Assembly (NCBI GenBank): GCA_001801865.1
Contig: MGYT01000172.1
Span: 2,022 to 37,658, forward strand
Origin: Gammaproteobacteria bacterium RIFCSPLOWO2_02_FULL_61_13
GTDB taxonomy: Bacteria > Pseudomonadota > Gammaproteobacteria > Eutrophobiales > Eutrophobiaceae
Length of the DNA stretch: 35,637 bases
Reading direction: 5' to 3'
Shown: positions 12,755-35,540 of the stretch, piece after piece
Numbering within the stretch: the stretch's first letter is position 1
How the letters are laid out: each line of letters opens with the position of its first letter
The notes under the pieces: generated by a model
Database searches by the model: none
What the model was told of the DNA's origin: nothing
What the model saw: only the letters and a program-made list of their open reading frames with translations
Translations under genes and position numbers: made by a program

Positions 12755-12759
12755 TCAGG

Positions 12760-14739
12760 GTGGGTTTCATTCACTGCGAGCATCCGCGCGTTCCGCCATG
12801 GCTTGAGCCGTGCGCGGTATTCCTTTTTATCCTCGCCAATTACCTGCTCAGCGCCCCGCGCGGAGTCGTGCTGGACGACGACGGCTACTTCATCCTCGCC
12901 GCCTGGTACGGCGGCGTTGCCCATCCTCCCGGCTATCCGCTGTACACGTTGGTTGCGAATCTGTTCACCCATATTCCCGCCGGAAGCGTGGCGTTCCGCG
13001 TGCACATGTGCAGTGCAGTGTTCGGAGCGCTGGCCTGCGCGGTTATCTGGGATCTGGTGCGGCGGGTTAAGGGGTCACGCATGGCCGCGTGGACTGGCGC
13101 CCTCGGCTATGGTTTTTCCGGCACGTTTTGGTTGCAGTCGACCATGGCGGAAGTGTATTCGCTCAATGCGTTTTTCTTCTTTGTGCTGTTGTGGCTGTGC
13201 GCAATACCCGGAAAGCGTGCATCCCGTGGAGTCTGGATCGCTGCCTTGTCCGGCCTGTCCCTGACCAACCATTGGCCGCTGATGCTGCTTTCCGCCCCGG
13301 CACTCGCGCTTGCAGCGTGGCCACATCGTCACGCATTGACGAGGCGGCCGTTGCCGGCGCTGACCTGGTTCTGCATCGGACTGCTTCCCTATGCCTGGAT
13401 GGTGTACCGATCGCGTGTTTCGGAGATTGCATTCTTCGGCCCCATCGAGAGCCTTTCCGACTTCTGGTTCTATGTGAGCCGCGAGGCGTACACCAGCATC
13501 GATCAAAGCGCCGCCGCCGGGTGGATGGACAAGCTCCGCTACGCCACATTCTCATTGACGGATGCCGCGCGTCAGTTTGGCTGGGTGGCGGCGCCGTTCG
13601 CGCTGGTGGGCCTGGCCGCGCAGTGGAAAGTATGGCCGCGATCCCTGTGCTGGGCACTGGTGGCGGGGTTTGCCGGGAGCACGCTGGTGCTGGCGATGCT
13701 GCTGGGTTTCGATTGGGATCTGATGCATCGAAACGTATTTGCACCGTATCCGCTCGTGGCGCACGGCATATTTGCGGTCTGGGTGGCGCTGGGCGTGACG
13801 GTGATGGCGGACTGGCTCGCGCGCAGTTTCCCGGCCCCGGCACGAACCCGGATCGTGCTGCCGGCGCTGGCGCTGATGGCAATCGGCAGTGTCTGGCTCA
13901 GTAACGCGCCGGCAAATTATCGGCCCGCTGCAGGGTGGGCCAGTGAGTTTGCCACCACATTGCTGGAATCACTGAAACCCAACGCAGTCCTGATTGTGTC
14001 GGGAGACTACGCGGTCGGACCGGTTGCGTACCTGAACCGGATCGAGCGCCTGCGGCCGGACGTGGAAGTATTCAACGTCGCCGGCCAGCTATTTACCAAT
14101 CGCGTGGTATCGCCCCGCAGCACCGATCCGCTGGCAGCCCGGGCCGCCTTTGAAAATTTTATTGCGCAAGAGCAGCGGCCGATTTATTACCATCTCAATC
14201 TGCCGCACCAGCGGCCCGTCACATTGCATGGGCTCTTCTATGAAGTGGCGCGCGACCTCCCCGCCGGCGACAACAAGGTAATTCTGACGCCGCGCATTGA
14301 GCAGTTCTTCTCGCGCATGTTTGCGCAGGACGAGCCGAAGGACCTCAGCGAGCTGATGCACCACCGTCAATTGGGTGCGGTATATTGCCGTACCCTGGCG
14401 GCCCTGACTGAGGCCCTGGAAAACACGAAGATTTCCACCAGCCTGGAAAGGAATTGCGCGGGATATTACGGGCTGCTGGAGCGCGCCACTTTCCTGCTCG
14501 CGCGGGAACACCCTGATCCGACACAGGCTCTGGCGTTGCTGCGCCTTGCCGGTGCGCGACAGGGCGAGGCAGTGAGCATGCAGAGTATTGCCATGCTGGA
14601 TAATTTGTTCGGGCTTGCCTACGATCAGCTCGGCGCATCAGACAAAGCGAGCGAACATGTTCGCCGTTCGCTGGCGCGCTGGCCCGATTCATCCAATCCC
14701 GCTCATGCCATGATGCGCGCGGGCCAGTCCGGACAATGA
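12760..14739 (+). CDS. DUF2723 / GT117-type membrane glycosyltransferase (copy 1)
   Basis: Polytopic membrane protein, about 659 residues from GTG 12760. The frame is also open to an ATG at 12637 inside the upstream gene, so the start is uncertain. The N-terminal half has the DUF2723 (TMEM260-like) signature: an acidic loop VLDDDGYFILAAW after the first helix, then HPPGYPLY at 55-62 and WLQSTMAEVYSLNAFF. About ten membrane helices follow, then a soluble C-terminal half with TPR-like character near the end. Human TMEM260 transfers mannose from dolichyl-phosphate mannose to proteins; by analogy this enzyme would use a polyprenyl-phosphate sugar in the periplasm. Its stop overlaps the next gene's start (ATGA). 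Confidence 0.82.
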   Translation: MGFIHCEHPRVPPWLEPCAVFLFILANYLLSAPRGVVLDDDGYFILAAWYGGVAHPPGYPLYTLVANLFTHIPAGSVAFRVHMCSAVFGALACAVIWDLVRRVKGSRMAAWTGALGYGFSGTFWLQSTMAEVYSLNAFFFFVLLWLCAIPGKRASRGVWIAALSGLSLTNHWPLMLLSAPALALAAWPHRHALTRRPLPALTWFCIGLLPYAWMVYRSRVSEIAFFGPIESLSDFWFYVSREAYTSIDQSAAAGWMDKLRYATFSLTDAARQFGWVAAPFALVGLAAQWKVWPRSLCWALVAGFAGSTLVLAMLLGFDWDLMHRNVFAPYPLVAHGIFAVWVALGVTVMADWLARSFPAPARTRIVLPALALMAIGSVWLSNAPANYRPAAGWASEFATTLLESLKPNAVLIVSGDYAVGPVAYLNRIERLRPDVEVFNVAGQLFTNRVVSPRSTDPLAARAAFENFIAQEQRPIYYHLNLPHQRPVTLHGLFYEVARDLPAGDNKVILTPRIEQFFSRMFAQDEPKDLSELMHHRQLGAVYCRTLAALTEALENTKISTSLERNCAGYYGLLERATFLLAREHPDPTQALALLRLAGARQGEAVSMQSIAMLDNLFGLAYDQLGASDKASEHVRRSLARWPDSSNPAHAMMRAGQSGQ

Positions 14740-16880
14740 CGCGACTCCCGCCGAACCCGGCATCCACGAGAACCCGCCGCGTGAGTGAGAATCTGAAGCA
14801 GACGGAGCAGATGGCCTTGAATACGGCTGGACCAGCGGAATTGCCAGGCAACAATCCGAACCATCGGCGCCACGCCGTGACGTCGCTGATAATGCTCGCG
14901 GGCGGCGCGCTGTATTTCGAATTGGCGCTGATTCGATTCACCGCCGCCGAAGTCCTGTATCTGGGCTATTTCAGCAATTTCATGCTGATCACGGCATTTG
15001 TCGGACTCGGCGTGGGGTTTCTCGCCGCCGGCCGGCAAATGGACCTGGGCCGCGTGTTGCCATTCACGCTGCTGTTCCTGTTCGCGCTCGTACTCGTATC
15101 CAAATTCGATGTGGACCTGCTGCGCAATCATTTCGGCCTGTTCTTTTTTGGCAATGTCACCGGGCAGGCCGGGGCGCCGGCGGCATTGTTGCTGGTGGTG
15201 CTGTTCTTGGCGACGGCTGCCTTTTTCGCTGCTGTCGGCGCACGCCTCGGACAGGCCTTTGCGGGCTTCACGCCTCTCAGGGCGTACACCTGGGATGTAT
15301 TGGGCAGCCTGTTGGGGATTGGGTTGTTCTCGGTGCAGAGCATGGTCGGAAGCGGGCCAATCACCTGGGTCTTCACTGGAACGCTGCTGCTGGGCGCCGG
15401 TTGGATCGCCGATGCCCGCCCCGGAACGCGCGGCACCGCCGCGGGACTGGTAGTCGCCAGCATGTGTGTGGTGTTGCTGCTGCTCAGCGCGCGCACCGGC
15501 ATGCCGACGCAGTGGTCGTCCTACCAGAAGCTGACACTGGCTGAGAATGATTCCGGTCTCAGGGTGGTATTCGCCAACGGCATCGCGCATCAGTTCATGC
15601 ATCCGGCGGCCAAGGCCGGCGTCACCTATTATGGTGAGCCCTATCGCCAGGCGGCCGCTGCGGGTCTGGCACTGGATAATGTGCTCGTCATTGGCGCCGG
15701 TTCCGGGACCGATGTCGCCGTGGCACTGAACTTTGGCGCCCACCAGGTGGATGCAGTGGAGATTGATCGCGGTATCGTCAATTGGGGCCGGATGTATCAC
15801 CCGGACCAACCGTATGCAGATCCGCGCGTACAGGTACACGTCACCGACGGTCGCAAGTTCCTGCAGAACACCACGCAGAAATACGACCTGATCGTTTTCG
15901 CGCTGCCGGATTCGTTGATGCGGTTGTCCACGCTGTCCAACATCCGGCTGGAGTCCTACCTCTTCACTACCGAGGCGTTTGCCGCGGCGCGCTCGCGGTT
16001 GAAGGACGGCGGGTTGTTCGTGCTCTACAACCAGTACCGCTGGCCGTGGCTGATAAACAAGATCGCGGCGACGGCTGAACAGACGTTTGGCGCGGCCCCG
16101 GCAATCATTGCCTTCGGCGACACCACGGTGATTGCAGCAGGTGGTGCCATCCGCGGCGCGGCGATAGATCGGTCGGATTTCGAGCGACTGCCCACCGACA
16201 ACTGGCCGTTCGTTTACATGCAGAAACCCGCCATTCACTGGCTGTATATCGGAATGATCGCGCTGTTTCTCGGTACGTCCATGCTTGCGGTCCGGGTCCT
16301 GGCCCCGGCGGGCACGCTCGGGCGCCCGGCTTTCCCGTTTTTCTTCATGGGCATGGCCTTTCTGTTGCTGGAGACCAAGAGCCTGGCGTTTTTTTCGCTG
16401 CTGTTCGGCACCACCTGGCTGGTCAACGCCATGTCGTTCGCCGGTATTCTGTGTTCCGTGCTGGCAGCCAATCTGATCATCCAGCACTCCCGCTGGCGTA
16501 ATCGAAATTTGATGTTTGCCGGGCTGTTCGCGGGACTGGCACTCGCTTACCTGTTGCCTGCGCAGGTATTCCTCGGGCTGCAGTCGGAGCAGTTGCGCTA
16601 CGGCGCCGGCGCAGCATTGATGTTCGCGCCGATCTTTTTTGCCAACCTGGTATTCAGCCGTTCCTTCATGGAAACCGAGGCCAGTGCGAGTGCGTTTGGA
16701 TGGAACCTGCTCGGTGCCGTAGCCGGGGGCGGGCTGGAGTACCTCTCGTTGCTGACCGGATATCGGGACCTGTTATGGATCGTCGGCCTGTGCTACCTGT
16801 TGGTTTTCCTGATGGTTCGGACCAGTCCGCAGCCCGCGGTCGGTCAGGTTCCCGCCGGTGCGCCCAGGGTCACTGACTGA
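14736..16880 (+). CDS. Membrane-embedded spermidine-synthase-like protein
   Basis: 714 residues: six or more N-terminal membrane helices (ALYFELALIRFTAAEVLYLG onward), a central Rossmann domain resembling spermidine synthase / SAM methyltransferase (VLVIGAGSGTDVAVAL, then VDAVEIDRGIVNWG, VTDGRKFL, YDLIVFALPDS), and a further block of C-terminal helices. The usual GGGDGG of SpeE is GAGSGTD, and the residue before the conserved DGR is Thr rather than Asp, so true aminopropyl transfer is doubtful. It overlaps both flanking DUF2723 genes (4 and 23 bases) and must be made with them. The function is unknown; modification of a lipid-linked sugar or of the pilus is a guess. Confidence 0.8.
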   Translation: MTRLPPNPASTRTRRVSENLKQTEQMALNTAGPAELPGNNPNHRRHAVTSLIMLAGGALYFELALIRFTAAEVLYLGYFSNFMLITAFVGLGVGFLAAGRQMDLGRVLPFTLLFLFALVLVSKFDVDLLRNHFGLFFFGNVTGQAGAPAALLLVVLFLATAAFFAAVGARLGQAFAGFTPLRAYTWDVLGSLLGIGLFSVQSMVGSGPITWVFTGTLLLGAGWIADARPGTRGTAAGLVVASMCVVLLLLSARTGMPTQWSSYQKLTLAENDSGLRVVFANGIAHQFMHPAAKAGVTYYGEPYRQAAAAGLALDNVLVIGAGSGTDVAVALNFGAHQVDAVEIDRGIVNWGRMYHPDQPYADPRVQVHVTDGRKFLQNTTQKYDLIVFALPDSLMRLSTLSNIRLESYLFTTEAFAAARSRLKDGGLFVLYNQYRWPWLINKIAATAEQTFGAAPAIIAFGDTTVIAAGGAIRGAAIDRSDFERLPTDNWPFVYMQKPAIHWLYIGMIALFLGTSMLAVRVLAPAGTLGRPAFPFFFMGMAFLLLETKSLAFFSLLFGTTWLVNAMSFAGILCSVLAANLIIQHSRWRNRNLMFAGLFAGLALAYLLPAQVFLGLQSEQLRYGAGAALMFAPIFFANLVFSRSFMETEASASAFGWNLLGAVAGGGLEYLSLLTGYRDLLWIVGLCYLLVFLMVRTSPQPAVGQVPAGAPRVTD

Positions 16881-18756
16881 CGTCGCGTCGGAACGCCTGG
16901 CGGCCGGCGCTGTCGGGCTGAGTACGCTGCTGGTCTACCTGTGGAGCGCCCCGCGCACCGTGGTGCTCGAAGATGATGGTTTTTTTCTGCAGGCGGCGTG
17001 GTTCAATGCCGTCGCCCATCCACCGGGCTATCCGCTCTATGTAGCGTTGTCCCATCTTGCCACGCTGGTGCCGCTGGGGTCGGTGGCATTCCGGGTGCAC
17101 GCGCTGTCCGCAGTGTTTGCCGCCAGCGCCTGTGTGTTGCTGTTTCGACTCGCGCGCGGATTGATGCTGGCGCGGGAGGTCGCGACGGTCGCCGCAATGA
17201 CGTTTGGTGTTTCCGCGGCATTCTGGTCCCAGGCCATCATCGCCGAGGTGTATTCCCTGCACGTCCTGTTGTTCCTGGGCTGCGCCGCTATCTGCGTGAA
17301 AATCGGAGATCAACCTGGCCCGGTGGCCGGCCGGGACGTTGTGCTGATCGGCATATTGTCCGGCCTGGCATTGTCCAACCATTGGCCATTGTTCGTTATG
17401 TCGACGCCGATGTTGCTGCTGCTGGCCTGGCCGGCCGGCGCCAGTCTCTGGCGCAACGGCATTGCTCTCGTGGCCGGCCTGTTGCTGGGGCTGTTGCCGT
17501 ATGCCTGGATGATCTGGCGCACGCATGTGGTGCCGGAATTTTGCTTTGCCGGACCCATTACCAATTGGCAGGAGTTCCTCTCCCACGTGGGACGTCAGGG
17601 CTACGCCGCCCGCGATCATAATCCGGGCGCGGGGTGGTGGGACCGGGCGCTGTTTTCCTGGTTTGTTGTGCGCGAGACGGCGCGCCAATGCACCTGGGCG
17701 GGTGCCATGCTCGGGATAACCGGGTTCATCTGCCAGTGGCGATACTGGCCGCGGCGCATTTGCTGGGCCCTGACGCTCGGCTACCTGGGCAGCACGTTTC
17801 TGCTGATCCTGTTACTTGGATTTGATTACGACGAGTTTCATCGCCACACGTTTCGCGTCTACCCGCTGATCAGTTACACGGTGTTCGCGCTCTGGATCGG
17901 GTTGGGACTGCAGCGGCTGACTGTTCTGCTGCCCGCGTCGTGGGGGATGGCGCTGCGCGGCATTCCTTTGCCGTATGCCGCAGGCGCGTTATTGCTGGGT
18001 CTGACATTAATCACGCACCTGCCCGCCAATTATCGTGCCCGGGACACTTGGGCGGAGGTCTACGGCCGTGCCATCCTGGGCAGCCTGCCCGGGAACGCCG
18101 TCTTTTACAGCAACGCGGACACCGTCAACGCGCCAGTAGGCTACCTGCACCATGTGGAAGGCGTGCGTCCGGACGTGCAACTCGCCAGCGGGCATAGCCT
18201 GGAATTAAATGGGCGCCTGATCCGCCCCTACACATTGTCCGCGCCGGAACTGCAACGGGTGATAGCCGCATTTGTGGCCGGGAGCTCGTGGCCGATCTTC
18301 TACCTCAACGATTTTCCCCACGCCTACGGGGAGGATTTTTTCGGACTGTACTTTCAGGTCAACCGGGAGGCACCCGCAAGCCACGCGCGCGCCATCCTGA
18401 CACCTGCAATTGCGCAATATTATCGCGCCATCGCTGCGCTGCCGCCGCCAACGGACGGCTGGGAGAATATGCATCTGCGGCTGCTGCGCCAGGATGAGTG
18501 CCGGCTACTGGCTGCGTTGATCGCTGTGACCGAGGTAATAAAAGATCCGCCCACTGCCTGTCTTGGCCTGCACGGGCGACTTGTATTGGCGCAGCAGGCC
18601 CTGGCCCTCGATTCGAACTCGGGTAGCGAGGCAGCACGAAAATTGCTTCAGAATCCCGAGGCATTGCTGAAGGAGGCGGTGTACAAGAAAGATCGTGCGC
18701 TGTTTGAGGGGCTCTATGCGCTGGCGCATCAGTCCCCTGGGCGCAAGGGCGATTAG
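16858..18756 (+). CDS. DUF2723 / GT117-type membrane glycosyltransferase (copy 2)
   Basis: 632 residues from GTG 16858; paralogue of the gene at 12760. The same signature occurs at almost the same place: APRTVVLEDDGFFLQAAW, HPPGYPLY at 54-61, then SQAIIAEVYSLHVLLF. The membrane core also aligns (LSNHWPLFVMS, LPYAWMIWR, LGFDYDEFHRHTFRVYPL), with a soluble C-terminal part. The GTG start overlaps the previous gene by 23 bases; I see no better in-frame ATG near the first helix. It probably acts like copy 1, perhaps on a different acceptor. It ends 122 bases before the pilA sigma-54 promoter, with no clear terminator between. Confidence 0.82.
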   Translation: MRPGSLTDVASERLAAGAVGLSTLLVYLWSAPRTVVLEDDGFFLQAAWFNAVAHPPGYPLYVALSHLATLVPLGSVAFRVHALSAVFAASACVLLFRLARGLMLAREVATVAAMTFGVSAAFWSQAIIAEVYSLHVLLFLGCAAICVKIGDQPGPVAGRDVVLIGILSGLALSNHWPLFVMSTPMLLLLAWPAGASLWRNGIALVAGLLLGLLPYAWMIWRTHVVPEFCFAGPITNWQEFLSHVGRQGYAARDHNPGAGWWDRALFSWFVVRETARQCTWAGAMLGITGFICQWRYWPRRICWALTLGYLGSTFLLILLLGFDYDEFHRHTFRVYPLISYTVFALWIGLGLQRLTVLLPASWGMALRGIPLPYAAGALLLGLTLITHLPANYRARDTWAEVYGRAILGSLPGNAVFYSNADTVNAPVGYLHHVEGVRPDVQLASGHSLELNGRLIRPYTLSAPELQRVIAAFVAGSSWPIFYLNDFPHAYGEDFFGLYFQVNREAPASHARAILTPAIAQYYRAIAALPPPTDGWENMHLRLLRQDECRLLAALIAVTEVIKDPPTACLGLHGRLVLAQQALALDSNSGSEAARKLLQNPEALLKEAVYKKDRALFEGLYALAHQSPGRKGD

Positions 18757-23626: not shown

Positions 23627-24556
23627 TCAACTGTCAAGCAATTGACCGTGATTCTCGTAGACCAACTGTTGATTCATTTTTCGTACCCACGGTAGAACGA
23701 ACGGCAGCCGCCAGTCGGAACGGCCTTGCCATCGATCGTCGTAGCTGATGTGCTCGCGCCGGCCGGGTGCGTCCCGATTCGGATTGCCCGCTATGATGTG
23801 GCTGCGGCTGGCCGACAGGTTTATCCCGGCGCCCTGGTCCACACCGATGAAGGACAGTATCCGCCGCATTTCCTGTTCCGGCGCACGGGTGAACATTTCG
23901 TAGGAGGCGAGGTATCCGGACACGCCCAGCGCCTGCAGGCGGCGCAGCAATCGCCACTGTTGCAGATGCCACAGGCAGCCATAATAAAGCGGTGAGCGCG
24001 TCAGCCACGGAATCATCCAGGCAACGGCTGATGCGGTGCGGCCGAAATGGTAGTGAAGATTGCGCACGTAGACTCCGTCGGTCGAGAACTTCGCCGGGTT
24101 GCCGGCGCGATCATCCAGCCGCGATACGATCCACGCGCGCACGTCGCGGACCAGCAGGATCACCCTCAGATCCACATGCTCAATTTGTTTCAGGATCTGC
24201 ACCGAACGAATGCTCTTGGAGGAATCCACCAGCACTGTGCCGGCACCGAACTGGTCCTGAAACATGCGCAGGCAGAGTCGGTATTTTTCGTCGGCATCTG
24301 CGCTCGCGTGGCGATCCAGCAGCGAGCGCATGGGGGCCCAGAAGTTGCACTGGGTTTCGACCTTGCCGCAGGTGCATGACGCCGTGCGCGGAATACCCGC
24401 AGTGTCCGGTCGCAACACGGTCGCGATCTCGCCCAAGCCGACGATGCCCGGCTGCGTACCCAGTGCCAGGTCCAGCAGGGTCGATCCGCAGCGGGTCAGG
24501 CCAACGATGGCCACAACCTTTTGCCGCTCCCGTGCTGGGTTAGGGCTAGCGGTCAT
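23627..24556 (-). CDS. PAPS-dependent sulfotransferase-like protein
   Basis: 309 residues. The 5'-phosphosulfate loop GLTRCGSTLLDLAL begins at residue 19, and the 3'-phosphate binding region LLVRDVRAWIVSRL lies near 135-148, both placed as in the sulfotransferase_3 / carbohydrate sulfotransferase group. CTCG and QCNFW cysteines near 61-72 are also common there. Such enzymes sulfate sugars or lipids from PAPS. Second gene of a leftward pair with the methyltransferase (54 bases between them), beside the polysaccharide locus. The substrate is unknown. No PAPS synthesis genes are in the window. Confidence 0.8.
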   Translation of the reverse strand: MTASPNPARERQKVVAIVGLTRCGSTLLDLALGTQPGIVGLGEIATVLRPDTAGIPRTASCTCGKVETQCNFWAPMRSLLDRHASADADEKYRLCLRMFQDQFGAGTVLVDSSKSIRSVQILKQIEHVDLRVILLVRDVRAWIVSRLDDRAGNPAKFSTDGVYVRNLHYHFGRTASAVAWMIPWLTRSPLYYGCLWHLQQWRLLRRLQALGVSGYLASYEMFTRAPEQEMRRILSFIGVDQGAGINLSASRSHIIAGNPNRDAPGRREHISYDDRWQGRSDWRLPFVLPWVRKMNQQLVYENHGQLLDS

Positions 24557-25584: not shown

Positions 25585-26166
25585 GTGCCCTTGAATACCG
25601 TCTTCGCCGGATTAATCACTTCCAAGATGCGCGTGCGCATCCTAATGCGCCTGTTCCAGAATCCCGGACAGCAAGCGTACCTGCGCGAACTCGCAAACGA
25701 GTTTGCCGCCTCCACCAGCCAGGTGCGGGAGGAATTGCAGCACCTTTCCGCCGCCGGCCTGCTGAGTGGTGAACGCAACGGGCGTCAGACCTTGTACCGC
25801 GCGAACGAAACCCATCCCCTGTTCCCCGAGTTGAATTCAATGGTCAGAAAAGCACTCGGCATGGACCGCATTCTGGACAGCATTCTTGAGCGGCTGGGGA
25901 ACCTGGAGCTGGCCTTTGTATTGGATGACTACGCCATGGGGCGCGACAGTGGCCTGATCGATCTGGTCCTCGTCGGCGCGATCGATCAGGAGAATCTCTC
26001 GGATCTCGTGCGCAAGACCGAGGGCTACATCGGCAGGAAGATCCGCGTGCTGTCATTGACGCGCCCGGAATTTACGCGCTTGCGTCCCGAACTGGTGCGA
26101 CGTCCCAGGATTCTGCTGTGGGGCACGGATGAGGAATTGAATTCGACTGCGCGGGTGGTGGCATGA
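25585..26166 (+). CDS. Winged-helix regulator with a degenerate MNT-type nucleotidyltransferase domain
   Basis: 193 residues. N-terminal ArsR-like winged helix (about 5-75): SKMRVRILMRLFQNPGQQAY, LRELANEFAASTSQVREELQ, then the wing GLLSGERNGRQTLYRANE. The C-terminal part (about 95-185) resembles a minimal nucleotidyltransferase, but the catalytic GS...D-x-D is eroded: the GS is LDD and the acidic motif reads DSGLIDLVLVG with only one of the two metal aspartates. I infer a non-catalytic ligand or partner domain. It opens a rightward run of polysaccharide genes and overlaps the next (ATGA). GTG 25585 has a poor ribosome site; ATG 25627 is possible but would cut into the first helix. Confidence 0.78.
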   Translation: MPLNTVFAGLITSKMRVRILMRLFQNPGQQAYLRELANEFAASTSQVREELQHLSAAGLLSGERNGRQTLYRANETHPLFPELNSMVRKALGMDRILDSILERLGNLELAFVLDDYAMGRDSGLIDLVLVGAIDQENLSDLVRKTEGYIGRKIRVLSLTRPEFTRLRPELVRRPRILLWGTDEELNSTARVVA

Positions 26167-27161
26167 CTGCGCCGGCCGCAGCCGCTTTGACCGGGTTCAT
26201 GGATGCATTTGGCCTGACCGCGGAACAGCGCAGCCGGATCACGGTGCAACGGGAGTGGCAATCGCCGGCCCTGCCCATTTCCCTTTCCCTGCTGCTGCCG
26301 ACGCGCCTGCGCCCGGACCTGTTGCGCAGGTTCCTGGACAGCGCGGCGGAAATGGCGCGTAACCCGGAGCAAATCGAGGTGGTCCTGTATATAGATGACG
26401 ATGATCCAGGCACGACTGGCATTGGCAGCCCACGGCTCAACCTGACGCGCTTGCGCGGACCGCGCATGCCCATGAGCCAGCTGAACAGCGCCTGCGCCGA
26501 GTGCAGCAGCGGGCAGCTGTTGATGTTGACCAATGACGACGTAATCGTGGAGACGCGGGATTGGGACCAGGCGATCAAAGATCTGCGCGCGCAGCATGCG
26601 GACGAAATCTTCCTCGCCTGGCCCAGGGATGGCGTCATGGACGCACGGCTGGCGACGTTTCCGATCCTGTCGCGCCGCGCCTGCAGCCTGCTATGCGAGC
26701 CGTTTGGCAGCGGCTACCGGCGTCTTTTTATTGATGCGCACGTCATGGACATATTTATCCGCTTGCGCGCAATGGGGCAAAACCGGATGCACTTTCTCGG
26801 GGATGTCGTGTTTCGTCATTGTCACGCGTCGCCACCGGCTGGACGAAGAACGGATCTCACCGACGATCTGGAGTTTCTCCGGCAGCGGGGATTGCGCCAA
26901 TGGCAGGCCGCCACATTAAATGCCGCGGTCCGTGGCCAGGATCGGCCGGCAAATTGCCCGCTGCCGCAGGAAATCCAGGAGCCGGAGAGTTTGTGGCTGG
27001 CATTGCGGCTTTTTTCAAGCACCCTGCTGCTGGATCGCGGTTTGCCGTGGTGGAGCCGGTTGAACTGGTGGCTCCGGTTCTGCGGGCATTACTTCGTGAC
27101 CCGGGGCGCGGTGGCGGCATGGCTGGCTCGATGCACCGGACCCGCCGGGGCCGAAGGCTGA
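26163..27161 (+). CDS. GT-A fold glycosyltransferase-like protein
   Basis: 332 residues. SLSLLLPTRLRPDLLRRFLD, then EVVLYIDDDDPGT and LMLTNDDVIVET, are the nucleotide-binding strand and acidic motifs of a GT2-like domain; a later FHC-type patch (VVFRHCHASP) is followed by a hydrophobic C-terminus (LWLALRLFSSTLLLDRG). It has the look of a glycosyltransferase but is divergent, and the substrate cannot be read. Couples to the regulator by ATGA overlap and to the radical SAM gene by a one-base gap, so the three are expressed together. Confidence 0.65.
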   Translation: MTAPAAAALTGFMDAFGLTAEQRSRITVQREWQSPALPISLSLLLPTRLRPDLLRRFLDSAAEMARNPEQIEVVLYIDDDDPGTTGIGSPRLNLTRLRGPRMPMSQLNSACAECSSGQLLMLTNDDVIVETRDWDQAIKDLRAQHADEIFLAWPRDGVMDARLATFPILSRRACSLLCEPFGSGYRRLFIDAHVMDIFIRLRAMGQNRMHFLGDVVFRHCHASPPAGRRTDLTDDLEFLRQRGLRQWQAATLNAAVRGQDRPANCPLPQEIQEPESLWLALRLFSSTLLLDRGLPWWSRLNWWLRFCGHYFVTRGAVAAWLARCTGPAGAEG

Positions 27162-28705: not shown

Positions 28706-29716
28706 ATGGCCGTGATTATCAGCCGCACGCCATTTCGTGTTTCATTCTTCGGCGGTGGCACCGATTACCCGACCTGGTACCGGGAAAACGGCGGCCAGGT
28801 CCTGTCCACGAGCATAGACAAGTATTGCTATATCAGCGTGCGCCACCTGCCCCCGTTTTTCGAGCATCGCTACCGGGTGGTGTATTCGAAAATCGAGAAT
28901 GTGGGTCACTACGACGAGATCCAGCACCCGGCAGTGCGCGCCGTCCTCGGCCACCTGGGCTGCGAACAGGGACTCGAGATTCACCATGATGGCGACCTGC
29001 CCGCGCGGGCCGGGTTGGGATCGAGTTCCTCCTTCACCGTTGGGCTGCTGGCCGCCATCCATGCGTTGCGCGGCGAGTACCGCTCCGCGCAGCAGCTGGG
29101 CGCCGAGGCCATTCACGTCGAGCAGGAGTTGATCCGGGAAAGTGTCGGCTCCCAGGACCAGATCGCCGTCGCCTACGGCGGCTTCAATCACATCCGTTTC
29201 CTGCCGGACGGCGACATCAAGGTGCAGCCGATCATCCTGCCGCTGGCGCGCGTGGCGGAACTGCAGGATCACCTGCTGCTGTTCTTTACCGGTCTGTCGC
29301 GCGAGGCCTCCACCATTGCCAGGAGCAAGATTGAAAATCTGCCCCGGCGCCGATCGCAACTTGCGGCAATGAACGGGCATGTGGATGCGGCCATCCGTCT
29401 GCTTGGCGATGGGCAGGCGGACCTGGCGCAATTCGGCGAACTGTTGCACGAAACCTGGATGCACAAGCGCGAACTGTCTGACCAAGTCAGCAACGGGGAC
29501 ATTGATGCCATGTATGAATCCGCGCGCCGTGCCGGGGCCAGGGGTGGCAAGCTGCTGGGCGCCGGCGGGGGCGGATTCCTGCTGCTGTTCGCCCCGCCGG
29601 AGCGCCACGCGGCGGTGCGCGCGGCGCTGTCTGCATTGACTCACGTGCCGTTTGCGTTTGAGCACGAAGGCGCGCGCATCGTCCTGTACCAGCCAGATCG
29701 GAAGGCCGGCCACTAA
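28706..29716 (+). CDS. GHMP sugar kinase, HddA-like (heptose 7-phosphate 1-kinase type)
   Basis: 336 residues. N-terminal SRTPFRVSFFGGGTDYPTWY is the substrate strand typical of D-glycero-alpha-D-manno-heptose-7-phosphate kinase and fucokinase-type GHMP enzymes. The ATP loop is ARAGLGSSSSFT at 101-112 and the third motif GGKLLGAGGGGFLLLF is near the C-terminus. ATG 28706 follows a good GGGAGG. With the HddC-like nucleotidyltransferase four genes on, it would make GDP-heptose or another C1-phosphorylated sugar. GmhA and GmhB partners are not in the window. Confidence 0.85.
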   Translation: MAVIISRTPFRVSFFGGGTDYPTWYRENGGQVLSTSIDKYCYISVRHLPPFFEHRYRVVYSKIENVGHYDEIQHPAVRAVLGHLGCEQGLEIHHDGDLPARAGLGSSSSFTVGLLAAIHALRGEYRSAQQLGAEAIHVEQELIRESVGSQDQIAVAYGGFNHIRFLPDGDIKVQPIILPLARVAELQDHLLLFFTGLSREASTIARSKIENLPRRRSQLAAMNGHVDAAIRLLGDGQADLAQFGELLHETWMHKRELSDQVSNGDIDAMYESARRAGARGGKLLGAGGGGFLLLFAPPERHAAVRAALSALTHVPFAFEHEGARIVLYQPDRKAGH

Positions 29717-29726
29717 GGCAAAACCC

Positions 29727-30758
29727 ATGAGCGCACCGGTTCGATATTCCTATGCCGGCACCGGTTACTCGCCCGGGGACCTGTCCGGGTACGCACCGGA
29801 GTTTCTGCTCCGCCTGTACCGGGAGATGCTGCGCATCCGGCGTATTGAGGAGCGCATCGAGGCGCGCTACCACGAGGACCAGATGAAATCGCCGATCCAC
29901 CTGGTGATTGGCCAGGAGGCGATCTCGGTGGGCGCGTGCAGCGCGCTCGCCCGCGAGGATGCCATCTACCTGAGTCACCGCACCCACGGCAATTACCTCG
30001 CCAAGGGCGGCGACCTCAAGGCCATGATGTCGGAGTTGTACTGCCGCAAAAATGGTTGCGCCGGTTCCGTGGGCGGGTCCATGCACCTGTTCGACGTGGA
30101 CGCCGGAGTCGCCGGTTCGTCCGCCATTGTCGCGGGGAGCGTGCCGATTGCGGTCGGGCATGCGCTGGCTGCGCAGCAGCGCGGGACCGGCCAGGTTGTC
30201 GGTGTGTTCTTCGGTGATGCGGGCGTGGAGGAGGGCGTGTTCTGGGAGAGCCTGAATTTTGCCGTGTTGCACCAGCTGCCGGTGCTGTTTTTCTGCGAAA
30301 ACAATTTCTATTCCGTGTGCTCGCCGCTCACGGTGCGCCAGCCCGAAGGCGTGGAAATCCATCGCAAGGCGACCGCGTTTGGCGCCAACACCATGCTGGT
30401 GGATGGCACCAATGTCCTGCGCGTGCATGGCGCGGTGCGCAGCGCGGTCGCCGCGGCGCGTGCGGGGCGCGGGCCGCAATTTCTTGAATTGCAGGCCTAT
30501 CGCTGGCGCGGCCATGGCGGCGCCGGTGACGACAGCAAATCCGGCTACCGTTCCACGGACGAGGCCGCGCAGTGGCGCCAGTATTGCCCGGTGGCCGGAT
30601 TCGGGGATCTGCTGCGCGCACAGGGCCTGCTGGATCCGGACCTGCATGAAAATATGGAATCCGGGATCGCCGCGGAAATAGACGCCGCGTTTGAACATGC
30701 GATCAACAGTCCGGATCCGGATCCGGAAGAAATCACCCGTTTTGTCTACAGCCCATGA
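29727..30758 (+). CDS. Thiamine-diphosphate E1 alpha-like subunit in a sugar locus
   Basis: 343 residues, homologous to the alpha subunit of 2-oxoacid dehydrogenases. Has HRTHGNYLAKGG, the GGSMHLFD segment and the ThDP fold from Gly163-Asp164-Ala165 (GDAGVEEG) to Asn192-Asn193 (CENNFYS). The usual GDG is GDA here. ATG 29727 skips an overlap with the GHMP kinase. No E2 or E3 gene is present and all neighbours act on nucleotide sugars. I infer that the pair decarboxylates a 2-oxoacid and passes a two-carbon unit to a keto sugar, as proposed for AviB1/AviB2 in avilamycin synthesis, rather than feeding a dehydrogenase complex. Confidence 0.87.
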   Translation: MSAPVRYSYAGTGYSPGDLSGYAPEFLLRLYREMLRIRRIEERIEARYHEDQMKSPIHLVIGQEAISVGACSALAREDAIYLSHRTHGNYLAKGGDLKAMMSELYCRKNGCAGSVGGSMHLFDVDAGVAGSSAIVAGSVPIAVGHALAAQQRGTGQVVGVFFGDAGVEEGVFWESLNFAVLHQLPVLFFCENNFYSVCSPLTVRQPEGVEIHRKATAFGANTMLVDGTNVLRVHGAVRSAVAAARAGRGPQFLELQAYRWRGHGGAGDDSKSGYRSTDEAAQWRQYCPVAGFGDLLRAQGLLDPDLHENMESGIAAEIDAAFEHAINSPDPDPEEITRFVYSP

Positions 30759-30776
30759 ACAGAAGGATCACGCGCC

Positions 30777-31814
30777 ATGCCGTGGAGTGAGGCCTTCTTG
30801 CGCAGCCAGGCCGCGCCCGCCGCGCCCACTGCGGCCGGGGAGCGCGTGATCTCGTATACGCACGCATTGGCGGAGGCACTGGCGCTGGCGCTGGAGATTG
30901 ATCCCAGGGTGTTCGTCCTCGGGCAGGGCGTGAACGACCCGGTCGGCATGTTCGGCCTGACCACGGGCCTGGCCGCGCGCTTTGGCGCGCGCCGCGTCTT
31001 CGACACGCCGCTGTCGGAGGATGCGATGACCGGGATTTGCACCGGCGCCGCGATGCAGGGACAACGTCCGGTGTTGCTGCATAACCGGCCGGATTTCCTG
31101 TTGCTGACATTCAGTCAACTGGTCAATCACGCGGCCAAGGTCCATTACATGGACCGCGGCCGGCACCGTGTGCCCATGGTGGTGTGGGCGGCCATCGGCC
31201 GCGGCTGGGGTTCCGGGCCCCAGCATTCCCAGGCCATTCACGGGCTGTTGCTGTCGGTGCCGGGACTGAAACTGGTGCTGCCAGGCACGCCCCATGACGC
31301 CAAGGGATTGATGCTTGCCGCCATCGCCGACAACAATCCCGTGGTGATCCTGGAACACCGCTGGCTGATGAAGGCCAGCGCTGCGGTGCCGGAGGGGATC
31401 TATCGCGTGCCCATCGGCAAGGGTGTGTACCGGCGCCGCGGCAGCGACCTGAGCATTGTCGGCACGTCACATACGTTGCACCTGGCGCTGCGCGCACTGG
31501 ACTCGGCGGCCTGCGCCGGCATCAGCGCCGACGTGATCGATCTGCGCACGGTGAAGCCGCTGGACGAGGACATCATCCTGGAATCCGTGGCGCGCACCGG
31601 CCGCCTGCTGGTCGTCGATCCGGGCTGGTCCCTGGGCGGCGTGTGCGCGGAGGTGGGTTGCCTGGTGGCGGAAAGGGGTTTTGATCTGTTGCGCGCCCCA
31701 ATCCGCCGCGTCGGTTTGCCCGATGCCCCCGCCCCAGCCGGCTTTGCATTGGAACAGGCCTATTATCCGAATGAAGTCACGCTCGCCGCGGCCATCCGCG
31801 GGCTGTGCGGCTGA
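30777..31814 (+). CDS. Thiamine-diphosphate E1 beta-like subunit in a sugar locus
   Basis: 345 residues, partner of the E1 alpha-like gene, starting 18 bases after it behind an AAGGA ribosome site. The E1 beta landmarks are present: TPLSEDAMTGICTGA with the cofactor glutamate, NHAAKVHYM, GPQHSQAIHG, PGLKLVLPGTPHDAKGL, NPVVILEHRWLMK, then the transketolase C-domain (VIDLRTVKPLDEDIILESV). An odd extra N-terminal stretch of about 20 residues (SEAFLRSQAAPAAPTAAG) precedes the fold. The function must be read with the alpha subunit. Confidence 0.87.
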   Translation: MPWSEAFLRSQAAPAAPTAAGERVISYTHALAEALALALEIDPRVFVLGQGVNDPVGMFGLTTGLAARFGARRVFDTPLSEDAMTGICTGAAMQGQRPVLLHNRPDFLLLTFSQLVNHAAKVHYMDRGRHRVPMVVWAAIGRGWGSGPQHSQAIHGLLLSVPGLKLVLPGTPHDAKGLMLAAIADNNPVVILEHRWLMKASAAVPEGIYRVPIGKGVYRRRGSDLSIVGTSHTLHLALRALDSAACAGISADVIDLRTVKPLDEDIILESVARTGRLLVVDPGWSLGGVCAEVGCLVAERGFDLLRAPIRRVGLPDAPAPAGFALEQAYYPNEVTLAAAIRGLCG

Positions 31815-31823
31815 GGCAACGTG

Positions 31824-33047
31824 ATGGAGACAGCGCCCGTGACCTATCCATTGGCGAGTTCCTCCTGGGACGAGGACGAGATCGCTGCGTTGCAGCGGGT
31901 CATCGCCGACGGCCGTTTCACCATGGGCGAGCAGGTGCGCGACTTCGAGCGCCGGTTTGCCGATTATTTCGGCAGTCGCCACGCGTTAATGGTGAGTTCC
32001 GGATCCATGGCCAACCTGGTTGGCGTGGCGGCACTGTTTTTCCGCAGCAACCGGCCGCTGCAGCGCGGTGACGAGGTCATCGTCCCGGCCGTCTCCTGGG
32101 CCACCACCTATTACCCGTTGCAGCAGTACGGATTGCGCCTGCGATTCGTGGATGTGGATCTGCACACGCTGAACATGGACGTGACCCAGCTGGAGGCCGC
32201 GTTGTCGCCGCGCACACGCATGGTGGTGGCGGTCAGCATCCTGGGCAATCCCGCCGCGTTGGCCGAGCTGCGTGATTTCTGTGACCGGCACGACCTGATC
32301 CTGTTCGAGGACAACTGCGAATCCATGGGTGCGCGGCTGGACGGACGCTATGCCGGCAGCTGGGGCGACATCGGCACCTTCAGCACTTTTTTCTCCCACC
32401 ACATTTCAACCATGGAAGGCGGCGTGCTGGTTACCGACGATGACGAGCTGTATCAACTCGCGTGCTGCCTGCGGGCGCACGGGTGGACCCGGGACCTGCC
32501 GCCTGACAGCGGCCTGTACCAGCGCCGCAGCGCTGATTTTTTCGAGGCCTACCGGTTCATCCTGCCTGGATTCAACGCGCGCCCGCTGGAGCTGTCGGGC
32601 GCAGTCGGCATCGAGCAACTGAAGAAATTGGATCAACTGATTGCAGCGCGCCGGCGCAATGCCGCCCACTTCACCGGATTGTTCCGCGACGATGCGCGCC
32701 TGCTCATCCAGCGCGAGCACGGCGAGAGCAGTTGGTTTGCATTCACGCTGTTGTTGCATCCCGGTCTTGCGGATGCGCGCGGCCGCGTCATGGCCGCGCT
32801 CAAGGCCGCGGGCATCGAGTTCCGCATCGTCACCGGCGGCTGTTTCACGCGTCACGATGTGATCCGTTACTTCGATTACGACACCGTGGGGGATCTCCCC
32901 AACGCCAACCTGGTCCATGACCAGGGGTTCTTCGTCGGCAACCATCCGCGTGATCTGCGCCGCGAACTGGACCTGTTGCGCCGGACCATCGATGGCTGCC
33001 TCGGGCCGGACGCTACGGGCGGCGAGGGGTGGTCGTGGACGCGGTGA
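31824..33047 (+). CDS. DegT/StrS-fold enzyme with His in place of the PLP lysine (ColD/RfbH-type 3-dehydratase)
   Basis: 407 residues from ATG 31824 (GTG 31821 adds one). Sugar aminotransferase fold: GEQVRDFERRFADYFG, SSGSMANLVG, FEDNCESMGA. Where aminotransferases carry the Schiff-base lysine (SKN...EGG), this reads SHHISTMEGG, with His192 (codon 32397-32399) in the lysine position. That exchange defines the PMP-dependent 3-dehydratases ColD and RfbH/E1, which remove the C3 hydroxyl of 4-keto-6-deoxy sugars. So the enzyme should make a 3-deoxy sugar, not an amino sugar. No separate ferredoxin-type partner is seen, which favours the ColD type. Confidence 0.87.
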   Translation: METAPVTYPLASSSWDEDEIAALQRVIADGRFTMGEQVRDFERRFADYFGSRHALMVSSGSMANLVGVAALFFRSNRPLQRGDEVIVPAVSWATTYYPLQQYGLRLRFVDVDLHTLNMDVTQLEAALSPRTRMVVAVSILGNPAALAELRDFCDRHDLILFEDNCESMGARLDGRYAGSWGDIGTFSTFFSHHISTMEGGVLVTDDDELYQLACCLRAHGWTRDLPPDSGLYQRRSADFFEAYRFILPGFNARPLELSGAVGIEQLKKLDQLIAARRRNAAHFTGLFRDDARLLIQREHGESSWFAFTLLLHPGLADARGRVMAALKAAGIEFRIVTGGCFTRHDVIRYFDYDTVGDLPNANLVHDQGFFVGNHPRDLRRELDLLRRTIDGCLGPDATGGEGWSWTR

Positions 33048-33763
33048 TCCTGGCCGGTGGCCTGGGCACGCGCTTGCGCGCGGTGGTGCCGGATGTGCCG
33101 AAGCCCATGGCGCCGGTGGCCGGGCGTCCGTTCCTGGCCTGGCTGGCCGAGTACTGGATCGCCCAGGGTGTGCAGCGCCTGATTTTTTCCGTGGGCTACC
33201 GGCACGAGGTGGTGCGGGATTACTTTGGTGATGCCTGGGGCGGCTGCCCGGTGCAATACGCAATCGAACCACAGCCTTTGGGCACCGGTGGCGGATTGCT
33301 GCTGGCACTGGCGGAAGCGACGCCTCGGGCAACGACCCTGGTGTTGAACGGCGACACGTTTTTCGATGTACCGCTGACGATGCTGCGCAGCGCGCATATG
33401 CAGTCCCAGGCCACGGTGACGCTGGCGCTCACGCAAGGCCGGGGTTCCGGACGCTACAGCGGGGTGCGGCTGGACGCCACGGGCAGGGTGGTGGAATTGG
33501 CGGCGCGTTCGGCGGGCACCACGCCGGTCGTCAACGGCGGTGTCTATTTGATGGAGCCTGACGCGCTGGGCGCCGGGTCCGCAGGCACGCCAATGTCGCT
33601 GGAAGATGAACTGCTACCCCGGTTGATTGCCTCCGGGGCGCGGGTGCAGGGTGTCGCCTGTCCCGGGCGATTCATAGACATCGGCGTGCCGGAAGATTAC
33701 CAGCGCTGCCAGGAGTGGTTCGGCAAAGAGCCAGGCGCGCAGGCAGCCACGGCAAACAACTGA
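33035..33763 (+). CDS. Sugar-1-phosphate nucleotidyltransferase, HddC-like
   Basis: 242 residues. Signature GGLGTRLRAVVPDVPKPMAP with the catalytic Arg and Lys, then GRPFLAWLAEYWIAQGVQRL and PLGTGGGLLLAL, LVLNGDTFFDVP. The short single-domain form with this PKPM-P-V-GRPFL pattern is typical of heptose-1-phosphate guanylyltransferase (HddC) and MurNAc-P uridylyltransferase. I chose GTG 33035 (GAGGGG 5-6 bases upstream); GTG 33029 is an alternative. Overlaps the 3-dehydratase gene by 13 bases. Paired with the HddA-like kinase it supports a GDP-heptose-type route. Confidence 0.85.
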   Translation: MDAVILAGGLGTRLRAVVPDVPKPMAPVAGRPFLAWLAEYWIAQGVQRLIFSVGYRHEVVRDYFGDAWGGCPVQYAIEPQPLGTGGGLLLALAEATPRATTLVLNGDTFFDVPLTMLRSAHMQSQATVTLALTQGRGSGRYSGVRLDATGRVVELAARSAGTTPVVNGGVYLMEPDALGAGSAGTPMSLEDELLPRLIASGARVQGVACPGRFIDIGVPEDYQRCQEWFGKEPGAQAATANN

Positions 33764-33780: not shown

Positions 33781-34719
33781 ATGGGAATGCGGATTCTGGT
33801 GACGGGCGGCGCGGGCTACCTGGGTTCAATCCTGGTGCCCGAACTGCTGGCGCACGGCCACAAGGTCACCGTGCTGGATAACTTCATGTATGCGCAGAAC
33901 AGCCTGGCCCACGTGTGTGCGCAACCGGCATTCAATGTGGTGAATGGCGATGCGCGCCTGGAGTCCACGCTGGCGCCGCTGGTGCGCGCCGCCGACGTGG
34001 TCATTCCATTGGCCGCCTTCGTCGGCGCGCCGTTGTGCGATCGGGACCCGATTGGCGCATCGTCCGTGAACCATGATGCCGTGCTGCTGCTGCTGCATCT
34101 GATCGATCCGGCGCAGCAGTTGTTGATGCCGACCACAAACAGCGCCTATGGCAGCGGCGATGCCGGCAATTTCTGCACCGAGGAATCGGAACTGCGGCCG
34201 ATCTCCCATTACGCGCGCCAGAAAGTGGAGATCGAGCGCGCCATCCTGCAGCGCGAGAACTCCGTCAGTTTCCGCCTCGCCACCGTGTTCGGGATGTCGC
34301 CGCGCATGCGCATTGACCTGCTGGTGAATGACTTCACCTATCGCGCCGTGCATGACCGCTGCCTGTTGCTGTTCGAGCCCCACTTCAAGCGCAATTACAT
34401 TCACGTGCGCGACGTGGCGCGGGTATTCCTGCACGGACTGAAGAATTTCGAATCCATGCGCGGCCGGATTTACAACGTCGGCCTCTCGGACGCCAACCTG
34501 TCCAAGCTGGAACTGTGCCAGGCCATCCAGCGCCGGTTGCCGCACGTGGTATTCATGGAGGCGCCGCTGGGCAGCGACCCGGATCAGCGCAACTACATCG
34601 TGTCCAACGCCAAAATTGAAGGCACCGGCTACATCCCTGCCCATTCGCTTGATGACGGGATAGTCGAACTGATCAAGGGCTTCACGATGATCAAGAAGCA
34701 GGGTTACAGCAACGTCTGA
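33781..34719 (+). CDS. NAD(P)-dependent extended SDR epimerase/reductase
   Basis: 312 residues. Rossmann motif GGAGYLG at 9-15 and catalytic Tyr144-x3-Lys148 (ISHYARQK) with TTNSAYG before it. The TDE motif of 4,6-dehydratases is missing, so it should epimerise or reduce a keto sugar rather than dehydrate it. The 4,6-dehydratase needed to feed the 3-dehydratase is therefore not in this window. ATG 33781 follows GGGGGA; the in-frame extension upstream has no family similarity. Substrate probably the product of the neighbouring enzymes. Confidence 0.88.
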   Translation: MGMRILVTGGAGYLGSILVPELLAHGHKVTVLDNFMYAQNSLAHVCAQPAFNVVNGDARLESTLAPLVRAADVVIPLAAFVGAPLCDRDPIGASSVNHDAVLLLLHLIDPAQQLLMPTTNSAYGSGDAGNFCTEESELRPISHYARQKVEIERAILQRENSVSFRLATVFGMSPRMRIDLLVNDFTYRAVHDRCLLLFEPHFKRNYIHVRDVARVFLHGLKNFESMRGRIYNVGLSDANLSKLELCQAIQRRLPHVVFMEAPLGSDPDQRNYIVSNAKIEGTGYIPAHSLDDGIVELIKGFTMIKKQGYSNV

Positions 34720-34733
34720 AGGGACAACGCGAA

Positions 34734-35540
34734 ATGAGTTCTTCGATGCGAAGATTTCTGGGTGATCTTCACCGGCAGCGCGATGTCATCCGCCTGCTGG
34801 CGCGGCGGGAATTCATGTCTCGCTACGCCGGCACCACGGCCGGGGTGGTGTGGGTGATTGTCCAGCCTGCGGCCACGGTGCTCATCTTCTGGTTCGTTTT
34901 CGCCGTCGGCCTGCGCGGCGCCACCGGCCCGGCGGGCGCACAGTTCCTGCCGTGGTTTGTCTGCGGCCTGGTGCCCTGGCTCATGTTCAGCGAGGTGCTG
35001 ACCATGAGCACCAACGGTGTGCGCGGCAACCTGCAGTTGATCAAGAAGACGCCGTTCCCGAGCGAGATACTGCCCATTGTGTATATCAGCGCGGCTGCGG
35101 CGGGGCACGCCGTGATGCTGCTGCTGGCATTGCTGATTGCCTGGGTATACGGCGTTGCACCCGGGCCCGGCCTGCTGGCGCTGCCGTTGTATTTCTGCGC
35201 GCTGTGTTTCCTGTTGCTGGGCCTGTGCTGGCTTGGCTCGGCCCTCAATGTGTTTCATCGCGACATTGGTCAGTCCATCGGCATCATAATCAACCTCTGG
35301 TTCTGGCTTACGCCGATCGTCTGGGACCGGTCATTGCTGCCGGGCCGCTGGGCGGAGGTCCTGTCCCTGAATCCGATGGTCTTCATCGTGGACGGGTACC
35401 GGTCGTCACTGCTGGGTGTCGCACCGGGGCCGGGCCTGGCCGGGGATGCAGCCGTATTCCTGCTGATCTCGGTGCTGGTATTTGTCGGCGGCGCCGAGGT
35501 ATTCCGGCGCCTGAAGCTGGAATTCGCGGACTCCATCTGA
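34734..35540 (+). CDS. ABC-2 type polysaccharide export permease (Wzm/TagG-like)
   Basis: 268 residues with six membrane helices (VWVIVQPAATVLIFWFVFAV, LPWFVCGLVPWLMFSEVL, ALNVFHRDIGQSIGIIINLW, FWLTPIVWD). N-terminal amphipathic start LLARREFMSRYAGTTAG is standard for Wzm/KpsM/TagG permeases that move a lipid-linked polysaccharide across the inner membrane. Followed 9 bases later by its ATPase. Its presence says the glycan is polymerised in the cytosol and exported by the ABC route, not Wzx/Wzy. Confidence 0.93.
   Translation: MSSSMRRFLGDLHRQRDVIRLLARREFMSRYAGTTAGVVWVIVQPAATVLIFWFVFAVGLRGATGPAGAQFLPWFVCGLVPWLMFSEVLTMSTNGVRGNLQLIKKTPFPSEILPIVYISAAAAGHAVMLLLALLIAWVYGVAPGPGLLALPLYFCALCFLLLGLCWLGSALNVFHRDIGQSIGIIINLWFWLTPIVWDRSLLPGRWAEVLSLNPMVFIVDGYRSSLLGVAPGPGLAGDAAVFLLISVLVFVGGAEVFRRLKLEFADSI

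Follow-up and report, generated by a model that had tools for sequence, protein, structure and literature searches.

A conserved operon with a two-subunit thiamine diphosphate enzyme and GDP-heptose-type genes as a candidate route to a branched surface sugar

Two-subunit thiamine diphosphate (ThDP) enzymes of the alphaKADH2 type are an established class of branching enzymes in antibiotic sugars (PMC12247030). These enzymes, which include AviB1/B2, EvdU5/S3, Pau11/12, the aldgamycin and kosinostatin pairs and KbDH-alpha/beta, are E1-like pairs encoded beside keto-sugar genes, and they are proposed or shown to place a pyruvate-derived two-carbon (C2) unit onto a sugar ketone (PMC12247030, PMC4425429, PMC10338323); for KbDH-alpha/beta, coupling of a C2 unit from pyruvate with ketones has been demonstrated in vitro (PMC12247030). 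A review credits the branches of surface polysaccharides to YerE-type enzymes and places the two-subunit type in secondary metabolism (PMC12247030). Here, we analyse an operon in a 35,637-nt stretch of DNA (the window) from Gammaproteobacteria bacterium RIFCSPLOWO2_02_FULL_61_13, in which an E1-like ThDP pair is encoded together with a ColD-type 3-dehydratase, guanosine diphosphate (GDP)-heptose-type genes and a B12-binding radical S-adenosylmethionine (rSAM) enzyme. We consider it probable, at roughly three chances in four, that the pair is the C2 ligase of a nucleotide-sugar pathway leading to a nine-carbon branched 3-deoxy sugar for a polysaccharide exported by Wzm and Wzt.

The window pair resembles the alphaKADH2 enzymes in architecture and gene context: it has two ThDP subunits with their catalytic residues, lacks an E2 and lies within a keto-sugar gene set. 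Whereas alphaKADH2 substrates are hexose- or pentose-derived sugars of actinomycete antibiotics, the pair is accompanied here, in a polysaccharide locus, by GDP-heptose genes, a B12-rSAM enzyme and a ColD-type dehydratase. In the YerE pathway (yersiniose A; ErwE, caryophyllose type), as in our proposal, a 3-deoxy-4-keto nucleotide sugar of a surface polysaccharide is extended at C4 by two or more carbons that a 2-oxo acid provides. YerE, however, is a single-chain, decarboxylase-type flavoprotein of the acetolactate-synthase type that uses a cytidine diphosphate-3,6-dideoxyhexose, in contrast to the two-subunit E1 architecture and presumed GDP-heptose substrate of the window enzyme. The capsular heptose pathways of Campylobacter jejuni share with the operon GDP-heptose synthesis genes, the C4-dehydrogenase Cj1427 and a pyridoxal phosphate (PLP)-dependent 3-dehydratase (the HS:5 C3-dehydratase), but they finish with C4 reduction and have neither a ThDP ligase nor a B12-rSAM enzyme. 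Mixing Cj1427 with the C. jejuni C3-dehydratase in vitro yields GDP-D-glycero-3-deoxy-4-keto-heptose (PMC10680097); matching genes for this artificial combination form a natural operon here. An earlier reading of the window, made from the sequence alone, had suggested a new branched-sugar pathway. The type of ligase is already established (PMC12247030), and what we did not find described in the literature searched is its use with GDP-heptose for a surface polysaccharide, which would extend an antibiotic-type two-subunit branching enzyme into polysaccharide biosynthesis.

The ThDP pair and its partner enzymes

The locus lies on an 80-kb contig (C172) of a 95.6%-complete genome, and coordinates are given as window positions (Table 1). 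The three genes that the sequence-only reading had singled out at 29727–33047, encoding E1-alpha, E1-beta and a DegT-fold enzyme, are real and correctly placed: they are intact and contiguous and run in one direction. The pair gives clear matches to pyruvate dehydrogenase (PDH) E1 families, at scores below the curated cut-offs (E1-alpha, 291.5 bits versus 393.85; E1-beta, 276 versus 321). E1-beta retains its catalytic Glu and His positions in 54 of 54 sequences. In the ThDP motif of E1-alpha, GDA replaces GDG (GDAGVEEG) and the NN half is retained, as the sequence-only reading had seen; because GDA is frequent but not universal, with GDG found in relatives that carry the same operon, we rejected it as a marker of function.

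The absence of E2 and E3 genes near the pair, noted in the earlier reading, extends to the whole of contig C172, on which none was found. All four E2 and both Pyr_redox_dim matches of the genome lie on other contigs, and three of the four E2 genes are 2–3 kb from separate E1 genes. Across the loci that share the operon (hereafter, the module), an E2-like open reading frame occurs in 0 of 59, versus 8 of 18 other E1 loci, and we accordingly rejected a role in a PDH complex. In a maximum-likelihood tree, 26 module E1-alpha proteins form a single clade (support 100/98), apart from the other E1 of the genome. A wider clade (100/98) adds the E1-alpha proteins of Azospirillum and Tistlia and a Streptomyces plasmid pair of unassigned function; the genome's own E2-linked E1 falls outside it. 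On the Streptomyces griseofuscus plasmid pSGRIFU1 (locus L116), a related E1 pair (50% identity over 259 aa) is part of a polyketide/condensation-domain cluster, and the annotation shows no sugar genes around it.

The DegT-fold enzyme is similar over its full length to ColD (PDB 2GMS, 442 bits) and carries the active-site His of that enzyme (SHHI replaces the catalytic Lys). The earlier identification of a ColD-type enzyme directly after the pair thus holds, and its predicted 3-dehydratase function is well founded. Some lineages have a ColD orthologue as the module enzyme and others an approximately 30%-identical protein, with Lys changed to His in every module copy. Because the His is retained in both types, dehydration appears to have been conserved through gene replacement. 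The ColD substrate GDP-4-keto-6-deoxymannose is unlikely here, since a search of the 95.6%-complete genome found no GDP-mannose 4,6-dehydratase (Gmd; best score 63 bits versus a cut-off of 415).

Several neighbouring genes point to a heptose instead. The kinase has HddA as its best named family (131.6 bits; curated cut-off, 600) and matches the sugar/heptose kinases of PDB 4USM and 3K85 with E-values of about 1e-35. The nucleotidyltransferase has HddC as its best family (173.5 bits; curated cut-off, 300) and scores 111 bits against PDB 6JQ8, a '6-deoxy-D-mannoheptose pathway protein'. The short-chain dehydrogenase/reductase (SDR) that follows matches PDB 6VO6 over its full length at 351 bits, with the next family at 72 bits, and has the catalytic Tyr and Lys, the YxxxK motif being present in 45 of 45 sequences. 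We take 6VO6, titled in the database as a putative sugar-nucleotide epimerase/dehydratase, to be Cj1427 of C. jejuni. A GmhA gene lies within the clusters of several relatives, and elsewhere in the study genome there are one SIS_2 (GmhA-type) gene and one GmhB-like gene, the latter below the strict cut-off. Taken together with the missing Gmd, these genes indicate that the module very probably builds on a GDP-heptose instead of a 6-deoxyhexose.

Conservation of the operon

The pair had been described as an orphan; it is in fact part of a larger conserved operon with HddA-, HddC- and Cj1427-like genes and a B12-rSAM gene that the sequence-only reading had passed over and that is equally constant. 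In the window, one co-directional run encodes, in order, a glycosyltransferase-like protein, the rSAM enzyme, the HddA-like kinase, E1-alpha, E1-beta, the DegT enzyme, the HddC-like protein, the Cj1427-like SDR and Wzm, and Wzt and further glycosyltransferases lie downstream of the window edge. The order rSAM, HddA, E1-alpha, E1-beta and ColD-like recurs in four further genomes of this class, which survey labels place in several families; HddC and a Cj1427-like gene usually come next. A scan with an alignment of these E1-alpha proteins, using one genome per species, recovered 63 loci from many phyla, almost all of them from uncultivated organisms. Restricting the loci to E1-alpha proteins at least 45% identical and to at least 5 kb on each flank left 27 well-covered loci, one plasmid included, among which the rSAM gene occurs in 27, the Cj1427-like gene in 26, HddA in 25 and HddC in 18. 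The survey of ColD homologues next to this E1 clade that had been suggested with the original reading finds a His-type DegT enzyme in 25 of the 27. Three further well-covered loci with a more distant E1-alpha lack the rSAM and Cj1427-like genes. The genes of the module cluster far beyond chance, and the rSAM enzyme can be assigned to the pathway because it is as constant as the C4-dehydrogenase.

In a reciprocal search with the rSAM protein as query, we screened 399 genomes from the order to which a Burkholderiales member belongs and found the gene in 17. Those loci with enough flank contain HddA, a two-subunit ThDP enzyme and, almost without exception, a Cj1427-like gene and a His-type DegT enzyme. 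In the ThDP slot, some loci have either an E1 pair or a divergent one (L149, L150), others a two-subunit transketolase (L154, L155) and yet others (L146, L151, L152) a minimal E1-like ThDP pair of about 200 and 180 aa (200 + 178) without the transketolase C-terminal domain; in L153 the first subunit alone of such a minimal pair was recognised. In Azospirillum argentinense and Azospirillum sp. B510, a transketolase pair lies beside HddA and a Cj1427-like gene; in the Azospirillum plasmid loci L118 and L122, a two-subunit transketolase next to these two genes takes the position of the E1 pair, and L118 has the rSAM gene as well. Exchange of the ThDP enzyme in an otherwise constant gene set is to be expected of a C2 ligase in a sugar pathway, and not of a pyruvate dehydrogenase.

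The module is distributed over Gamma-, Beta- and Alphaproteobacteria, Nitrospinota, Acidobacteriota, Chloroflexota, Planctomycetota, Myxococcota, Chlamydiota and other groups, and defines a widespread operon for a surface sugar that is apparently undescribed. On plasmid AZO_p6 of Azospirillum lipoferum 4B, Cj1427-like, E1-alpha, E1-beta and ColD-like genes occur together, with the rSAM and HddA genes about 25 kb away. This strain and the further cultured carriers A. thermophilum, Tistlia consotensis (L097) and Solidesulfovibrio magneticus (pDMC1) make experiments feasible. In L062, L117, L119, L120 and L122, a NUDIX hydrolase gene stands close to the gene for the kinase or the rSAM enzyme, at times directly beside it.

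Proposed pathway and alternatives

The idea, put forward in the sequence-only reading, that a two-subunit ThDP enzyme adds a C2 branch to a 3-deoxy-4-keto surface sugar is strongly supported by the gene neighbourhoods, the phylogeny, the missing E2 and the exchange of ThDP pairs; the sugar itself would be a GDP-heptose instead of a 6-deoxyhexose. From gene identities assigned by homology, operon conservation, the absence of E2 and the catalytic residues, we infer the chemistry, the sequence of reactions and the end product as follows. The Cj1427-like enzyme would oxidise C4 of GDP-heptose, and the ColD-like enzyme would take off the C3 hydroxyl to give GDP-3-deoxy-4-keto-heptose. The E1 heterotetramer would decarboxylate pyruvate on ThDP, and we propose that, because no E2 is available to receive the acyl group, the acetyl carbanion joins the C4 ketone, which would produce GDP-3-deoxy-4-C-acetyl-heptose with nine carbons and a tertiary alcohol at C4. 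The rSAM enzyme may next modify this 4-C-acetyl heptose, with a GDP-fucose-synthase-like SDR acting in many relatives, before the finished sugar enters the polysaccharide exported through Wzm/Wzt. The product of a natural Cj1427-plus-3-dehydratase combination thereby becomes testable, as does caryose biosynthesis, to which the last step may be related.

For that last step, we prefer a ring closure between C7 and C8 that would yield a caryose-type carbocycle (4,8-cyclo-3,9-dideoxynonose), a suggestion that we regard as tentative and less likely than not. The CxxxCxxC motif of the rSAM enzyme is present in 41 of 41 sequences. The HpnJ and BchE families, B12-binding rSAM enzymes that form five-membered carbocycles, are its nearest named families: they give the best E-values overall and match 13 of 13 members scanned, at scores far below the cut-offs (HpnJ, 148 bits versus 577.6; BchE, 118 versus 481), and the module enzyme is a member of neither. 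HpnJ performs the last step to the bacteriohopanetetrol cyclitol ether (PMC12583986), and the radical-SAM enzyme PolH closes a ring on a sugar nucleotide (PMC5365060). Caryose, from the lipopolysaccharide of Trinickia (Pseudomonas) caryophylli, has nine carbons, is 3-deoxy with a terminal methyl group and has an oxygenated C4 bonded to C8 (PMC9026286), a skeleton that would be expected from a heptose, an acetyl group at C4 and C7–C8 closure. Trinickia was not among the records returned by the genome-contig scan or the plasmid searches. In the open-licence literature searched, we found no description of caryose biosynthetic genes or of this operon; if the suggestion is true, it would provide the first route to caryose and an undescribed radical carbocyclisation route for surface sugars in many phyla, and the loci with a transketolase in the ThDP slot would make the 9-hydroxy analogue.

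A number of observations count against the pathway or parts of it. It is drawn from genes rather than from biochemistry or a glycan structure; the HddA and HddC assignments lie below their curated cut-offs, so that these proteins are only 'HddA-like' and 'HddC-like'; and a ThDP pair encoded among sugar genes might work with a different acceptor or donor. A recognised His-type DegT gene is missing from 2 of the 27 loci. The locus set was gathered with module E1-alpha queries and is thus biased in favour of the module, which the reciprocal rSAM search partly offsets, and some of its records duplicate the first four genomes. In addition, by our reading of the Fischer convention, the route to caryose requires inversion of C5 of the manno-heptose.

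The GDP-fucose-synthase-like SDR, found in 38 of the loci scanned, bears on this inversion. In E. coli GDP-fucose synthase, a Cys and a His serve epimerisation and a Tyr and a Ser serve reduction. The copy on the study contig keeps the epimerase Cys and His and has Phe and Ala at the positions of the Tyr and Ser used for reduction, and we speculate that it could supply the C5 inversion. A dedicated epimerase role for this SDR in general is unsupported, since the loss is confined to the contig copy and the module relatives keep all four residues.

The principal alternative concerns this step alone and is a sub-variant of the same explanation: after an identical route to the 4-C-acetyl heptose, the rSAM enzyme would be a B12-dependent C-methylase or an AprD4-like diol dehydratase, and the product an open-chain branched sugar (hydroxyethyl after reduction). 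We regard this as a serious possibility, somewhat short of even odds. A predicted model of the rSAM enzyme (predicted local distance difference test score, 78.6) matches B12-rSAM enzymes of differing chemistries, the nearest solved structures being those of TsrM, a methylase, and AprD4, a diol dehydratase of sugars. In many relatives, moreover, the GDP-fucose-synthase-like SDR has intact reductase residues. Against it stand, weakly, the best E-values of the carbocycle-forming HpnJ and BchE.

A C2 ligase that adds its unit to some keto sugar other than GDP-3-deoxy-4-keto-heptose, or that takes it from a ketose phosphate or a 2-oxo acid other than pyruvate, is rather unlikely. Transketolase pairs do occupy the E1 slot in relatives, and YerE-type enzymes vary widely in donor (PMC12247030), but the C4-dehydrogenase and 3-dehydratase are constant partners and the characterised two-subunit branching enzymes appear specialised for pyruvate-derived C2 (PMC12247030). 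Least probable, and very unlikely, is that the E1 of a pyruvate or acetoin dehydrogenase was transplanted, placed incidentally in a sugar operon and served by an E2 encoded elsewhere: the PDH E1 family matches are clear and the genome does have E2 and E3 genes, but three of its E2s adjoin their own E1, none of the 59 module loci has an E2 nearby, the pair keeps the same sugar genes as neighbours in different phyla and its phylogeny is separate from that of the genome's other E1.

Features of the locus

Table 1 Features of the operon and its surroundings (window positions unless marked; C172 and L029 are contig and locus coordinates)
Feature	Position	Strand	Basis
Glycosyltransferase-like protein	26163..27161	+	Without Pfam match; DDDD motif; relatives (26–39%) in 11 module loci
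B12-binding radical-SAM enzyme, 501 aa	27163..28668	+	PF04055, PF02310
HddA-like GHMP kinase (D-glycero-D-manno-heptose 7-phosphate kinase type)	28706..29716	+	HddA is top named family
E1-alpha-like ThDP subunit, proposed C2 ligase alpha	29727..30758	+	PF00676, E 1e-62
E1-beta-like ThDP subunit, proposed C2 ligase beta	30777..31814	+	PF02779, PF02780
ColD-type PLP-dependent GDP-4-keto-sugar 3-dehydratase (predicted)	31821..33047	+	PDB 2GMS match, active-site His
HddC-like nucleotidyltransferase (guanylyltransferase)	33029..33763	+	HddC is top family
Cj1427-like SDR (putative GDP-heptose C4-dehydrogenase)	33784..34719	+	PDB 6VO6 match
Wzm-type ABC-2 polysaccharide export permease	34734..35540	+	PF01061
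Wzt with Wzt_C domain	L029:72-1382, just past window		Homology
GDP-fucose-synthase-like SDR	C172:46717-47673 (L029:9218-10174), beyond window		Homology

The glycosyltransferase-like protein at the head of the run is a candidate transferase of the new sugar. Elsewhere in the window, at 12637–18756, a 714-aa protein with a spermine-synthase domain is encoded between two TMEM260-like (PF11028) membrane proteins of the O-mannosyltransferase type. A sulfotransferase-like gene (23627–24556, minus strand) adjoins a GT4 glycosyltransferase gene, and the polysaccharide may be sulfated.

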